A stretch of 44,701 bases of DNA, taken from contig JACRPZ010000082.1 of NCBI GenBank assembly GCA_016222905.1, positions 1-44,701 on the forward strand, read 5' to 3'. The notes below the pieces were generated by a model. The model was not told where the DNA came from. It ran no database searches and saw only the letters and a list, made by a program, of their open reading frames with translations. The position numbers and the translations under genes were made by a program. Below are positions 38,181 to 42,599 of the stretch, in pieces (the stretch's first letter is position 1; each line of letters starts with the position of its first letter). Source of the stretch: Nitrospirota bacterium (GTDB lineage Bacteria; Nitrospirota; Thermodesulfovibrionia; UBA6902).

Positions 38181-38250
38181 GATACAATGATAATTGACGG
38201 AATGCGGGACAAAAAAATCCGCATCCGAAACTGGGAAGGGGGCAGGTAAT

Positions 38251-39660
38251 ATGAATGATTATCAATATGATAATCAGACTGTGCGGGGCTTCATCATCTC
38301 ATCAATCTTCTGGGGAGTAGTGGGGATTCTTATAGGCCTCTGGATATCCATCCAGATGTGGGCGCCGTCGTGGAATATCGCGCCGTATTTTACCTTTGGC
38401 AGAATGAGGGTGGTGCACACAAACGGACTCGCGTTCGGGCTTGGGATCGGAGCGATCTTCGGCATCTTCTACTACATTACAATGAGGCTTTCGAGGAGGC
38501 CGCTTCTATTTCCCAAACTCGCAAGATTTCATCTCTACCTTTTCAATGCGGCAATCACCCTTGCCGCATTGAGCCTCTTTGCAGGCATGAACCAGTCCCT
38601 TGAGTACGCAGAGCTGGAGTGGCCGCTGGATATAGGGGTGGTTATCTTATGGGTCATTTTTGCGGTCAATATCTTCGGCACTATAATCAAACGGAAAGAA
38701 GAGCAGATGTATATATCGCTCTGGTTTATAATCGCAACTGTTGTGTCTGTTGCCGTGCTTTACATAGTAAATAACCTCTTTATTCCGGCAGGCTTATTCA
38801 AGTCTTATCATCTCTTTGCAGGCGTGAACAGCGCTAATGTTGAATGGTGGTACGGTCATAATGCGGTCGGCTTTATATTCACAACGCCTATACTTGCAAT
38901 GTTCTACTACTTCCTGCCAAAATCCACCGGCTTGCCGATATTCAGTCACAGGCTGTCCATTATCTCATTCTGGTCTATAGTTTTTGCATATCTATGGACA
39001 GGTGCGCATCATCTTGTCTACACGCCGCTTCCAAACTGGATACAGACCGTTGCGATAGTCTTTACCATGTTTCTGATAGCGCCTTCATGGGGTTCTGTGG
39101 TAAACGGCTTTTATACTGTGGCGCCTGACTGGTCCAAGATGAGGACGAATTATCTGACAAAATTCTTTATTCTTGGCATAACCTTTTACGGTCTCCAGAC
39201 CCTGCAGGGGCCTACGCAGGGATTAAGGGTGGTCAGCCAGTTGATCCATTACACGGACTGGGTGCCGGGTCATGTGCATATGGGGACAATGGGCTGGGTG
39301 ACGATGGTCGTTGTCGCCTCTGTCTACTACATAATACCGAAAATATATGATACGGAGATATACAGTGAAAAGATCGCGAACATGCATTTTTATCTCGTAT
39401 TAATCGGACAATTGATATTTTCAATTACCATGTGGATAACGGGAATTCAGCAGGGAGCTCTGTGGAAGGCTGTAAACCCTGACGGGACATTGAAGTATAC
39501 ATTCATCGAGACCCTTGTGAAGAACTATCATTTCTGGCATATGAGGACCCTCGGAGGGATCATCTTCACAGTGGGAATGCTCTTCTTCATCTATAACATA
39601 TTTATGACGATCCGAAAAGGCAAAGCACTGTCGGCCATAAAGAGAGAGGGGGTGCGGTAA
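38251..39660 (+). CDS. ccoN: cbb3-type cytochrome c oxidase subunit I
   Basis: This 469-residue membrane subunit contains the low-spin haem b and the haem b3-CuB site where O2 is reduced. Histidine ligands are visible in MRVVHTNGLAFGLG, WWYGHNAVGF, TGAHHLVYTPLP and VPGHVHMGTMGW. About 12 membrane segments are present. GGGAAGGGGGCAGGTAAT before 38251 marks the start, not the earlier in-frame ATG at 38194. The stop overlaps the next start as TAATG. Confidence 0.95.
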   Translation: MNDYQYDNQTVRGFIISSIFWGVVGILIGLWISIQMWAPSWNIAPYFTFGRMRVVHTNGLAFGLGIGAIFGIFYYITMRLSRRPLLFPKLARFHLYLFNAAITLAALSLFAGMNQSLEYAELEWPLDIGVVILWVIFAVNIFGTIIKRKEEQMYISLWFIIATVVSVAVLYIVNNLFIPAGLFKSYHLFAGVNSANVEWWYGHNAVGFIFTTPILAMFYYFLPKSTGLPIFSHRLSIISFWSIVFAYLWTGAHHLVYTPLPNWIQTVAIVFTMFLIAPSWGSVVNGFYTVAPDWSKMRTNYLTKFFILGITFYGLQTLQGPTQGLRVVSQLIHYTDWVPGHVHMGTMGWVTMVVVASVYYIIPKIYDTEIYSEKIANMHFYLVLIGQLIFSITMWITGIQQGALWKAVNPDGTLKYTFIETLVKNYHFWHMRTLGGIIFTVGMLFFIYNIFMTIRKGKALSAIKREGVR

Positions 39661-40592
39661 TGGCAGGAGCAATTTACAGAAAACCAATACTGTTTGCGAT
39701 AGTCTCAGCAATTGTTATCCTGATTGGAACTGCGGTTACCATGTTTATCCCTATGCTTACCCCTCAGATGCACCCAAAGCTTGAAAACCTGAAGCCCTTT
39801 ACGCCGCTCCAGCTTGCAGGAAGGGACATTTATCAGAGGGAGGGCTGTAATAACTGCCATACGCAGACCGTGAGGCCTTTAAAGACAGAGGTTATGCGAT
39901 ACGGTGAATACTCAAAGGCCGGTGAGTTTGCTTATGACCATCCATTTTTGTGGGGCTCCAAGAGGACCGGGCCTGACCTTGCAAGGATCGGCAAAAAATA
40001 CCCTGATATGTGGCACTATAAGCATTTTGAAGATCCGAGGGCATTCTTTGCGGAATCCAATATGCCTTCCTATGGATGGCTGAAGGGTAGGAGCCTTGAT
40101 CCTGAAGATATAAAGAGCCACATGGATGCTTTAAGCTTCCCTTATACTGCCGATGATATTTCCGGCTTGAGCGGCAAGGACGAGATGGATGCGCTTGTGG
40201 CATACATGCAGGTCATCGGGATTGCTGTCACTAAAACTGCTGCTTCCGAAGCCAAGCCAAGGGTCAAAGCAGAAGAGCCTGAAAATCCGCTTGCCGGAGA
40301 CCAGAAAGCGATTGAACTTGGAGAAGAACTCTATGAAGGGAACTGTGAGATGTGTCATGGTGAACATGGCAAAGGAGACATCGGCCCCAGCCTTGTTGAC
40401 AATATTTTTCTTTATGAAGAAGGCGACCTTGCTGATGACGATTATTTTGAGATAATAAATAACGGGACATCCGAGGGCATGGTGGAAGAAGGGCGCACTG
40501 CAAAAGGCGGCATGCCTTCGTTTAGCGACCAGATGCAGAAGAATGAGATATGGTCGGTCATATCTTACATAAGGTCTCTTCAGAAAAAATAA
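39660..40592 (+). CDS. ccoO: CcoO fused to a second cytochrome c domain
   Basis: This 310-residue protein has one N-terminal membrane anchor (8-32), then the CcoO mono-haem domain (CNNCH at 63-67, axial Met135 in SNMPSY). After a linker (about 190-210) comes a second class I cytochrome c domain (CEMCH at 229-233, KGGMPSFSD). CcoO is normally about 200 residues with one haem, and the second domain corresponds to a haem domain of CcoP. It carries electrons from soluble donors to CcoN. It is directly coupled to ccoN and followed by a separate CcoP-like anchor. Confidence 0.9.
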   Translation: MAGAIYRKPILFAIVSAIVILIGTAVTMFIPMLTPQMHPKLENLKPFTPLQLAGRDIYQREGCNNCHTQTVRPLKTEVMRYGEYSKAGEFAYDHPFLWGSKRTGPDLARIGKKYPDMWHYKHFEDPRAFFAESNMPSYGWLKGRSLDPEDIKSHMDALSFPYTADDISGLSGKDEMDALVAYMQVIGIAVTKTAASEAKPRVKAEEPENPLAGDQKAIELGEELYEGNCEMCHGEHGKGDIGPSLVDNIFLYEEGDLADDDYFEIINNGTSEGMVEEGRTAKGGMPSFSDQMQKNEIWSVISYIRSLQKK

Positions 40593-40604
40593 GGAGGAAA
40601 AATC

Positions 40605-40790
40605 ATGGCAGAAGACCTCGATAATATAGCGTCATTTGAGGCAAAGGAGACATCAAGAAAACTGCCGGTCGGCTGGCTGATACTCTTCTGGGGGCTCATA
40701 ATCTGGGGCATTTATTACTTTGTTGCGTATACTCCTGCGATAAGCGGATGGAGCCAGGAGAAGGCATACGAGGAGTCAATAAAGAAATGA
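40605..40790 (+). CDS. Free-standing CcoP-like N-terminal membrane anchor
   Basis: This 61-residue protein has one membrane helix (VGWLILFWGLIIWGIYYFVAY) flanked by a short acidic N-terminus and a C-terminal SGWSQEKAYEE. The pattern matches the N-terminal anchor segment of CcoP (FixP N-domain), but no haem domain follows. AAGGAGGAAAAATC precedes the start. It is 12 bases after the ccoO fusion, so this operon carries the anchor and the haem domain on different polypeptides. Confidence 0.75.
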   Translation: MAEDLDNIASFEAKETSRKLPVGWLILFWGLIIWGIYYFVAYTPAISGWSQEKAYEESIKK

Positions 40791-40878: not shown

Positions 40879-40977
40879 ATGGATATATCAATTGTTGCAA
40901 CAATAGGCTTTACTGTCTTGGCAGTCATCGGGATTGCAATCATCTTCTTTGCTTCCTGCGGCTGCAAGAAGAAGTAA
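40879..40977 (+). CDS. 32-residue single-helix membrane protein
   Basis: The frame encodes MDISIVATIGFTVLAVIGIA, then IIFFASCGCKKK. It is one membrane helix with a CGC motif and a basic end (positive-inside). It has no strong Shine-Dalgarno (AATAGGAAATAGCT). Its place among cbb3 genes suggests a small accessory subunit, but I do not recognise a named family. Confidence 0.5.
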   Translation: MDISIVATIGFTVLAVIGIAIIFFASCGCKKK

Positions 40978-41137: not shown

Positions 41138-41281
41138 ATGAATGAACAATCTGCTGCATATTTTATATTCGGCCTTGTACTTGTAGTGCTGTTTGTGGTA
41201 ATAATCGCTTTTTACTACTCCAAAAAGAGGCATAAAAAAGTCGAGGAGCCGAAGTATAAAATGCTTGATGACGACGAGTAA
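41138..41281 (+). CDS. ccoQ: CcoQ-like small membrane protein
   Basis: This 47-residue protein has one membrane helix (YFIFGLVLVVLFVVIIAFYY), a basic stretch SKKRHKKVEEPKYK and an acidic end LDDDE. This pattern matches CcoQ-like cbb3 assembly or stability proteins. It overlaps ccoG by 14 bases, so the two are translationally coupled. Confidence 0.7.
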   Translation: MNEQSAAYFIFGLVLVVLFVVIIAFYYSKKRHKKVEEPKYKMLDDDE

Positions 41282-42470
41282 GAAGTTCCGGCCGTGGAGA
41301 AGGCTCGCGGGCGCGCTTGAGGCTGTAATAATTCTCGGCATCCCGTTCTTAAAAATAAACGGCGAGAGCGCACTGAGATTTGATATCCCCTCCTTAAGAC
41401 TTCACTTCTTTGGTTTAACGCTCTGGATGGAAGAGTTCTTTATACTCCTAATAGCCGTGATCTTCCTGACCTTCTTCTTCCTGCTTATTACATTGCTCTT
41501 CGGCAGGATATGGTGCGGCTGGCTTTGCCCGCAGACTGTGATCTCTGACCTTACACGGTTTGCGGAGAAGGCAAAGGGGCTTGCATATAAACTTGGCGCA
41601 TATTCAGCGGTCTTTCTGATAAGTGTTATCGTTTCCGCAAACCTCATTTGGTATTTCATTGACCCGTATGAATTCATCCCGCAGGCAATGGAAGGCAGAC
41701 TCGGAGATGTCACATGGGGATTCTGGATAACCCTTACGGGGATAATCTTTCTGAACTTCATTCTCCTCAGGCAGAGGTTCTGCGCGACCATATGCCCTTA
41801 CGCTAAACTTCAGGGCGTAATGTATGACGACAAGACACTTGTCATCGCTTTTGATACACGAAGAAAAGAAGAGTGTATGGATTGCGGGGCGTGTGTCAAA
41901 GCATGTCCTGTAAATATTGACATACGAGAGGGGATGAGCAACGCCTGCATAAACTGCGCGCAATGTATTGATGAATGCGCGGATATGATGGGGCACAGGG
42001 AGAGGAAATCCCTTATCAGCTACTTCTTCGGACTGCCCGGAGGGACAGGGAAGATACTGCGCCGGAATGCGGTGATGCTTGGTTCCGTCGCCGCAGCTTT
42101 TCTTGTTTTCTTTGCATATCTTTTATTTTCGCGCGTCGCTCTTGATATGGTCATTCTGCCGAACTACTCATTCCCTCCAAAGATTACCGAAGACGGAAGG
42201 GCGGTCAACTCATATATTTTATCTCTGAGGAATACCGGCGGGAAGGATATTGCTCTCAAGGTTGACGTCAATGGGATTTCAGGCTCAATCGCCATAATTC
42301 CTGAGGGGGATATTACAGTGGTTGCTGGAGAGTTAAAGAAAATCCCTCTTTACATCACGGTCAAAGACTTTAATGAGAAGGCGTTGAAAAGCAATATTTT
42401 CATATCTGTTAAATCAATAAAAAGTGATAAACTAAGAGTAACGAGAAGGGCTAATTTTATATTTCCTTAA
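41268..42470 (+). CDS. ccoG: Cytochrome c oxidase accessory protein CcoG (FixG/RdxA)
   Basis: This 400-residue membrane protein has about five membrane segments and two 4Fe-4S motifs (CMDCGACVKACP and CINCAQCIDEC). The polyferredoxin-like CGWLCPQTV and CATICPYAKLQG segments precede them. A C-terminal Ig-like periplasmic domain follows (NYSFPPKITEDGRAVNSYILSLRN and later). CcoG reduces copper for cbb3 assembly in studied bacteria. The ATG at 41268 lies inside ccoQ. No ccoI, ccoH or ccoS is in the window. Confidence 0.93.
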   Translation: MTTSKKFRPWRRLAGALEAVIILGIPFLKINGESALRFDIPSLRLHFFGLTLWMEEFFILLIAVIFLTFFFLLITLLFGRIWCGWLCPQTVISDLTRFAEKAKGLAYKLGAYSAVFLISVIVSANLIWYFIDPYEFIPQAMEGRLGDVTWGFWITLTGIIFLNFILLRQRFCATICPYAKLQGVMYDDKTLVIAFDTRRKEECMDCGACVKACPVNIDIREGMSNACINCAQCIDECADMMGHRERKSLISYFFGLPGGTGKILRRNAVMLGSVAAAFLVFFAYLLFSRVALDMVILPNYSFPPKITEDGRAVNSYILSLRNTGGKDIALKVDVNGISGSIAIIPEGDITVVAGELKKIPLYITVKDFNEKALKSNIFISVKSIKSDKLRVTRRANFIFP

Positions 42471-42599
42471 AAGAGCAGATGAAGGCTTCATTTAGCACAT
42501 AACAGGCATTATTGGGATAATAGAAAGATGGGATGTGTCCCTAATTTGCTTTCTGAAAGGGTATGGAAACGATTACATGAGAATAGGATGGGCATGTAA

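Follow-up and report, generated by a model that had tools for sequence, protein, structure and literature searches.

A cbb3-type oxidase operon of Nitrospirota with a second haem domain on CcoO and a haem-free CcoP anchor

The operon and its subunits

Contig JACRPZ010000082.1 of the Nitrospirota assembly GCA_016222905.1 (44,701 nucleotides, analysed whole and herein called the window) carries an operon for a cbb3-type cytochrome oxidase whose c-type haem domains are placed differently from those of the classical enzyme. The genes, all on the forward strand, follow the order Rrf2, ccoN, ccoO fused to a cytochrome c, a CcoP anchor, an open reading frame (ORF) of 32 amino acids, ccoQ/fixQ and ccoG (Table 1). 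A sequence-only reading had proposed that the 310-residue protein (39660-40592) joins CcoO to a second CxxCH domain and that the 61-residue protein behind it corresponds to the membrane anchor of CcoP alone. Both statements hold, and the layout is a real and conserved variant of the cbb3 oxidase.

Pfam divides the fusion into FixO (residues 5 through 166; E 2.6e-70) and Cytochrom_C (residues 219 through 307; E 1.8e-16), each with one CxxCH (residues 63 and 229). The CcoO part matches PDB chain 3mk7_B (E 6.5e-57) and, having a FixO domain with CxxCH and a transmembrane (TM) helix, is a membrane-anchored mono-haem CcoO with a second haem domain added; PDB matches of the extension are class-I cytochromes and CcoP haem domains. 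C229, C232, H233 and M285 of the extension are invariant in 21 sequences, as is M135 of the CcoO domain, so that CxxCH and conserved Met in both domains appear as for His/Met haems.

The 61-residue anchor has no CxxCH and matches FixP_N (PF14715) only, passing the gathering cut-off of 24.9 bits; it aligns with CcoP N termini, and a profile built with one- and two-haem CcoP among its members matches PDB chain 3mk7_C. Its ratio of nonsynonymous to synonymous polymorphism (pN/pS) of 0.31 over 15 sequences (L056, L057 and L072 left aside; synonymous sites near saturation) indicates constraint. The three forward frames from the anchor start to the ccoG start contain no CxxCH in the window, and the anchor is therefore not a frame-shifted CcoP. 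A full CcoP elsewhere, named beforehand as the finding that would speak against the layout, was not found: the genome, a draft of 90 contigs that is 100% complete by the tool's figure, has a single FixP_N match, the window's own. Its three Cytochrome_CBB3 matches are the fusion, a 119-residue lipoprotein-like cytochrome (contig C41) and a two-CxxCH protein (contig C82) that adjoins a second COX1-family gene. With two CxxCH on the fusion, none on the anchor and no other CcoP anchor, the total of two c-type haems instead of the usual three, as the sequence-only reading had counted, is borne out.

With classical CcoNOQP (Pseudomonas stutzeri, 3MK7; R. capsulatus, 6XKW) the window shares the CcoN ligand histidines, the CcoO domain, the CcoP anchor, CcoQ and CcoG; it differs in the second haem domain of CcoO, a CcoP with no haem, an extra membrane peptide of ∼30 residues and two c haems against three. 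The haem-bearing CcoP, which has two haems in the classical form, is lacking, and as the genome holds no second anchor, the enzyme is a variant rather than a classical cbb3 member. The catalytic His set of CcoN is intact: residues 56, 203, 253, 254, 333, 341 and 343 are invariant in six aligned CcoN sequences, two of them from Gammaproteobacteria, and Tyr247, six residues N-terminal to His253, lies at what we take to be the site of the known helix-7 tyrosine of cbb3-type (C-family) enzymes. The start of CcoN was set at the ATG at 38251, the ORF list having it at the TTG at 38194. All three oxidase subunits miss their equivalog cut-offs (TIGR00780 ccoN, 514.6 of 583.15 bits; TIGR00781 ccoO, 198.4 of 200.65; TIGR00782 ccoP for the anchor, 28.0 of 179.95), which marks a divergent lineage; CcoG likewise scores 247.7 bits with the NCBI ccoG model, under its cut-off of 316.7.

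Table 1. Features of the oxidase operon in the window
Feature	Position	Strand	Evidence
Rrf2-family regulator, 131 aa	37785-38180	+	Pfam Rrf2, 127 bits
CcoN, catalytic subunit, 469 aa	38251-39660	+	COX1, 336.6 bits
CcoO part of fusion: TM helix (about 9-33) and first haem c domain, CxxCH at residue 63	39660-40160	+	FixO, 236.8 bits
Extra cytochrome c domain of CcoO, CxxCH at residue 229, Met285	40290-40592	+	Cytochrom_C, 61.7 bits
Haem-free CcoP membrane anchor, 61 aa	40605-40790	+	FixP_N, 34.3 bits
Conserved single-TM peptide, 32 aa, MDIS...FT...KKK	40879-40977	+	Conservation; candidate small subunit
FixQ/CcoQ, 47 aa	41138-41281	+	FixQ, 34.3 bits (cut-off 29)
CcoG/FixG assembly protein, 401 aa, overlaps FixQ	41265-42470	+	FixG_C, 50.7 bits; Fer4 domains

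Occurrence of the layout and its small peptide

To describe neighbourhoods we use four labels beside the classical one: B, plain CcoO with a one-haem CcoP; C, extended CcoO with a one-haem CcoP; D, extended two-CxxCH CcoO with a bare anchor, as in the window; and E, a giant CcoN-CcoO-cytochrome fusion with a separate haem-free anchor. Among 198 genomes of the phylum, FixP_N was found at E ≤ 0.001 in 37 and a strong FixO match (E ≤ 1.3e-60) in 30, all among the 37, and all 37 neighbourhoods (the window and 36 others) were examined. The survey across Nitrospirota that the sequence-only reading had proposed assigns 17 of the 30 CcoO-bearing genomes to layout D (window counted), four to C, eight to B and one to the classical form. 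Every one of the 17 layout-D genomes has a single FixP_N match, a second CcoP anchor being absent at the threshold used. The seven FixP_N genomes outside the 30 comprise four with layout E and three with weak FixP_N matches and no usual ccoO alongside. In layout E (L058, L062, L063, L069) fusions of 944 to 982 residues with three CxxCH are followed by a haem-free FixP_N anchor of 50 to 74 residues; four further FixO matches of giant-fusion type (G088, G049, G169, G183) stand outside this count. Weak FixO-type matches covering model positions from about 102 onward occur in many genomes of the phylum.

A scan of a genome collection yielded at least 80 loci. Among the listed matches, extended CcoO occurs in L072, a Nitrospirae metagenome-assembled genome (MAG), and L074, the complete chromosome of Anaeromyxobacter oryzae, both with layout D, and in L073 and L075 with layout C. 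In the phylum of A. oryzae (193 genomes sampled, 93 with FixP_N), we examined L074 and 16 other matches of E 1.3e-6 or weaker; 16 of these 17 loci have layout D and are herein called Anaeromyxobacter-type, one of them, L231, having its CcoO truncated at the start by the contig end. The seventeenth, L230, is a distant relative that pairs a two-CxxCH CcoO with a haem-free anchor. The phylum of L075, a Desulfuromonadales MAG, was sampled with 198 genomes, 26 of which match NF011054 at E ≤ 1e-40. The nine best matches (≥339.8 bits) comprise seven with layout C, L075's own included, and two, L236 and L242, with a bare anchor of 68 to 70 residues; the next five have plain CcoO, and the last twelve (L250 through L261) form a distant group with a two-CxxCH CcoO. 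A haem-free anchor of 87 to 94 residues accompanies six of these twelve, and none was seen in the other six within the stretch examined; the six anchors, like that of L230, have an extra N-terminal hydrophobic stretch.

These counts bear on the objection that the pattern reflects either a decayed ccoP or the faulty assembly of one genome. The window does come from a single draft assembly of many contigs. Layout D, however, recurs in 17 of 198 genomes of the phylum, which makes it neither unique nor an error, and again in L072 and in the 16 Anaeromyxobacter-type loci; the anchor is under constraint; and the forward frames from anchor to ccoG are free of CxxCH in 18 of the 19 loci checked. The nineteenth, L051, shows a CKLCH string immediately 5′ of the fixQ frame, with no cytochrome around it. 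On the strength of the layout counts, the missing haem motif and the anchor constraint, we regard a broken or frame-shifted ccoP, or an artefact, as ruled out, with a negligible residual chance.

An ORF of 29 to 35 codons with the consensus MDISIxATIxFT...L...KK lies 3′ of the anchor in 14 of the 18 Nitrospirota-type layout-D loci (the 17 and L072). Of the remaining four, L046 has a damaged-looking remnant, the contig of L043 ends first, and L048 and L049 are without the peptide. All 16 Anaeromyxobacter-type loci have a comparable helix, which forms the C terminus of the anchor protein in 13 and a separate ORF in 3; profile scores there range between E 1e-13 and a weak 0.38, and for the weak matches the assignment relies on position and visual similarity. 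Because some of the loci in which the peptide was later found had contributed to the profile, these counts record presence rather than independent discovery; the profile found no credible match in six-frame fragments of loci with other layouts. Over 14 sequences pN/pS is 0.41, with synonymous sites near saturation. The best match of any member in Pfam has E 0.013, and a PDB profile search with the family gave two hits (E 4.3 and 6.4), neither to a cbb3 chain, in a copy whose content of a CcoM chain was not checked. A profile comparison with the anchor alignment gave a probability of 2.1%, so that nothing suggests the peptide arose as a duplicate of the anchor helix. The peptide goes with layout D and is a candidate new small subunit, apparently undescribed; its fusion to the anchor in Anaeromyxobacter-type genomes ties it physically to the oxidase.

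Phylogeny, direction of change and electron path

CcoN trees of 53 and 68 rows and a haem-domain tree (77 rows, 95 columns) were rooted at their midpoints. The CcoN trees take in 6 of the 16 Anaeromyxobacter-type loci and 18 of the 80 collection loci and omit L057, whose CcoN is cut; the 68-row tree, which carries a long-branch warning for distant rows, also leaves aside L049, L052 and L064 and uses part of the 26 NF011054 loci. The domain tree covers 6 of the 16 Anaeromyxobacter-type loci and a selection from the 80 collection loci, without layout-E domains and L049. In CcoN, layouts B, C and D, the Anaeromyxobacter type, L076 and L078 form one clade apart from classical enzymes (100/100; 99/98). 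Within it, layout D and the six Anaeromyxobacter-type rows make a single clade (99/91; 100/92) with layout C on several branches around, while L242 (98/92) and L236 (94/49) are each nested among layout-C genomes, apart from D and from each other. Well-supported branches force two changes, and bare anchors would have arisen at least three times in the clade if layout C is the older state, as midpoint rooting suggests without proving it.

In the domain tree, layout-D and Anaeromyxobacter-type extensions form a single clade (96/91). Adjacent to it is a mixed clade (97/83) that brings together the six extensions of layout C, the CcoP haem domains of layout B, four of the six such domains of layout C, two one-haem CcoP and four small soluble cytochromes; classical CcoP domains stand separately (97/94), in company with the CcoP haem domains of L073 and L075 and with eight one-haem CcoP from other phyla. 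The phylogeny of the second haem domain against CcoP domains, proposed as a check on the layout, therefore sets the extension apart from classical CcoP. The trees do not favour the earlier suggestion that a haem domain moved from CcoP to CcoO: extended CcoO stands beside a haem-bearing CcoP in four genomes of the Nitrospirota sample, in L073 and in seven of the nine best NF011054 matches of the third phylum (L075's included), and such genomes are paraphyletic around layout D in the CcoN trees. Because of this paraphyly the extension is most simply older than the loss of the CcoP haem; in the simplest reading of the trees, CcoO would have had an entry haem of its own before CcoP lost its haem and kept its helix. 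The ancestor would have combined extended CcoO with a one-haem CcoP, three c haems in all; there would have been one loss of the CcoP haem domain in the Nitrospirota/Anaeromyxobacter clade and further, separate loss in two other genomes.

In R. capsulatus the electron route leads from cytochrome c through CcoP hemes cp1 and cp2 to the CcoO heme, then to heme b and b3-CuB (PMC7876108, in excerpt). With CcoP haem-free in the window, the operon encodes, apart from the CcoO haem proper, just one c haem that could be first to receive an electron, the one in the second CcoO domain, and the changed entry path that the sequence-only reading had foreseen follows as a natural inference. Our preferred reading, which we consider probable, is that the operon encodes a cbb3-type (C-family) reductase of a distinct lineage in which CcoO holds both c haems, CcoP is a haem-free helix and electrons enter at the C-terminal haem of CcoO. 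A periplasmic donor cytochrome c would reduce this haem, from which electrons would travel by way of the CcoO haem and haem b to the b3-CuB site of CcoN for the reduction of O2, presumably with the high affinity and the proton pumping expected of the cbb3 type. As the helix persists without haem, its role would be structural: the CcoP helix may pack against other subunits and be needed for assembly or stability, with the membrane peptide and CcoQ accompanying the enzyme.

Candidate upstream partners in the genome are a cytochrome b gene (contig C29) and the C41 lipoprotein-like cytochrome (P0002), beside a gene that is FixH-like by eye. With P0002 as query, matches were found in 13 of 198 genomes (eight of layout D including its own, three of layout C, two of layout B); in the three layout-C genomes (G156, G152, G023) the match is the CcoO extension and not CcoP. 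The same protein invites the explanation that CcoP was split, its haem domain now existing as an independent small cytochrome c that associates with the bare anchor, with three c haems still in use. Related genes do lie 3′ of ccoG in L038, L040, L042, L056 and L057, and four of these cytochromes group with CcoP haem domains of sister layouts in the domain tree (97/83). Yet a cytochrome of this type at E ≤ 1e-18 is present in just 8 of 17 layout-D genomes and absent from G158, G162 and G176 of the same family; P0002 has its own signal-like N terminus with what we take to be a lipobox-like Cys; and its three layout-C matches point to the CcoO extension. We judge a split CcoP improbable. Two neighbouring copies of a small soluble cytochrome c lie 3′ of ccoG in L056 (3310-4004).

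The matches in G156, G152 and G023 would suit a captured donor: a soluble cytochrome c that became joined to CcoO and serves as a tethered shuttle (like cytochrome cy) in place of a fixed entry haem, with the CcoP haems made dispensable. An AlphaFold2 model of the fusion places a linker of ∼17 residues, partly of low confidence, between the CcoO domains; this is short against the 69-residue linker given for cytochrome cy in an excerpted source, and the domain tree does not put the window extension inside the soluble group. We think a captured donor unlikely as well. The model has a helix at residues 9 through 33, and its five Foldseek matches at E ≤ 0.001 are all CcoO chains of cbb3 structures, class-I cytochromes scoring weaker.

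Entry at a di-haem CcoO, as preferred here, has several points against it. The fusion model is of middling quality (24-row alignment; mean predicted local distance difference test score, pLDDT, 67.5; predicted template modelling score, pTM, 0.47), with low-confidence stretches at residues 64-110, 195-205, 235-254 and 273-282, and is too weak to give the relative facing of the two haem domains. Nine of the 17 layout-D genomes have no P0002-type cytochrome at E ≤ 1e-18, so that the donor is not fixed. Beside the anchors of the basal layout-D pair, L048 and L049, the peptide is missing and there is no match to FixQ. The domain tree is short, weak and silent on the source of the domain; the mixed clade beside the extension also contains CcoP haem domains of sister layouts, and approximately unbiased (AU) tests neither reject nor show one origin of all CcoO extensions (p 0.16; 0.0635 without L073 and L075). 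The direction of change is interpretation, as roots were set at midpoints, and under that rooting the plain CcoO of layout B, L076 and L078 demands losses of the extension.

Relation to known oxidases and neighbouring genes

The fusion of CcoO with a cytochrome c in itself already has a model in NCBIfam, NF011054 (PRK14486, "putative bifunctional cbb3-type cytochrome c oxidase subunit II/cytochrome c"). The window fusion aligns over its full length (model positions 2 through 292 of 294) at 420.4 bits, below the curated cut-off of 447; the model is silent on CcoP, and in the sample from the phylum of L075, seven of nine matches at ≥339 bits adjoin a haem-bearing CcoP. Nitrospina gracilis has a fused CcoN-O-P oxidase of 954 residues (PMC3578206, in excerpt), which like the layout-E fusions gathers its haem domains on the CcoO-bearing chain. 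These differ from the window in having three c haems on one chain fused to a CcoN that is distant; a separate haem-free FixP_N anchor adjoins the four layout-E fusions, as in the window, and the excerpt of PMC3578206 makes no mention of one for the Nitrospina enzyme. One-haem CcoP oxidases (layout B; Bacteroidota, Chlorobi and other loci) also total two c haems, with the second on CcoP where the window has it on CcoO. CcoM, a 36-residue subunit of the P. stutzeri cbb3 oxidase (PMC10433244, in excerpt), resembles the window peptide as a tiny protein that accompanies a cbb3 oxidase. The peptide family has no PDB chain match at E < 4, a result that, at ∼30 residues, leaves room for kinship.

In the literature searched, mostly outside subscription papers and in part as excerpts (including PMC8235581, PMC10732223 and PMC12342949), neither a haem-free CcoP anchor standing alone nor layout D is described; the haem-free anchor as a subunit of its own, its repeated origin and the small peptide appear to be undescribed there. 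One magnetotactic Nitrospirota genome is reported with ccoN, ccoO, ccoP, an extra ccoP copy and no ccoQ, domain detail being absent from the excerpt (PMC10278575). Somewhat less firmly than the reading of the window itself, we favour a sub-class of cbb3 oxidases, in Nitrospirota, Anaeromyxobacter and independently elsewhere, with a structural haem-free CcoP helix, electron entry on a di-haem CcoO and an undescribed membrane subunit of ∼30 residues, encoded either separately or as part of the anchor protein. In the classical enzyme it is difficult to distinguish what CcoP contributes to electron transfer from what it contributes to the cohesion of the complex, and here the two roles are separated; since the haems went and the helix was kept more than once, the helix should have a role of its own. 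A FixP_N hit may be a bare helix, so the haem inventory of a cbb3 oxidase cannot be read from the annotation "CcoP present", and small subunits such as the peptide can escape annotation. A. oryzae being a named strain with a complete chromosome, these claims look testable in culture.

An Rrf2 gene lies upstream of ccoN in 25 of the 30 strong-ccoO neighbourhoods (window counted), and the Rrf2 protein of the window probably regulates the operon. Its cysteine pattern, CAVNEKACDQSKEC, presumably resembles that of Fe-S cluster (NsrR/IscR-like) members, and the oxidase may for this reason respond to NO or Fe-S status.

Downstream, positions 42421-42497 (the ccoG end and the first bases of the next gene) recur on contig C41 (L232, 200-276) with 86% identity over 77 nucleotides, followed there by a FixH-like gene, the lipoprotein-like monohaem cytochrome c and a TauE/UreH-like frame (names by eye). 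The operon seems to have been split between the two contigs by a rearrangement with a small duplication. In L074, FixH-like and TauE/UreH-like frames (again by eye) lie directly 3′ of ccoG. The second COX1-family locus of the genome (contig C82; L070, 9610-12716) encodes a 458-residue COX1-family protein, the 221-residue two-CxxCH protein and a Fer4_5 protein, and is perhaps nitric oxide reductase-like.

Three genomes of the same family as the window's carry a peroxiredoxin-like gene (by eye) between the bare anchor and fixQ (L045 from 6718, forward strand; L046 from 5890, reverse strand; L051 from 6499, forward strand). In each, an in-frame TGA stands at the expected peroxidatic Cys (FYPADFTFV[TGA]ATEFA) and the frame is open to the end of the protein, so that the gene likely encodes a candidate selenocysteine peroxiredoxin inside the oxidase operon.

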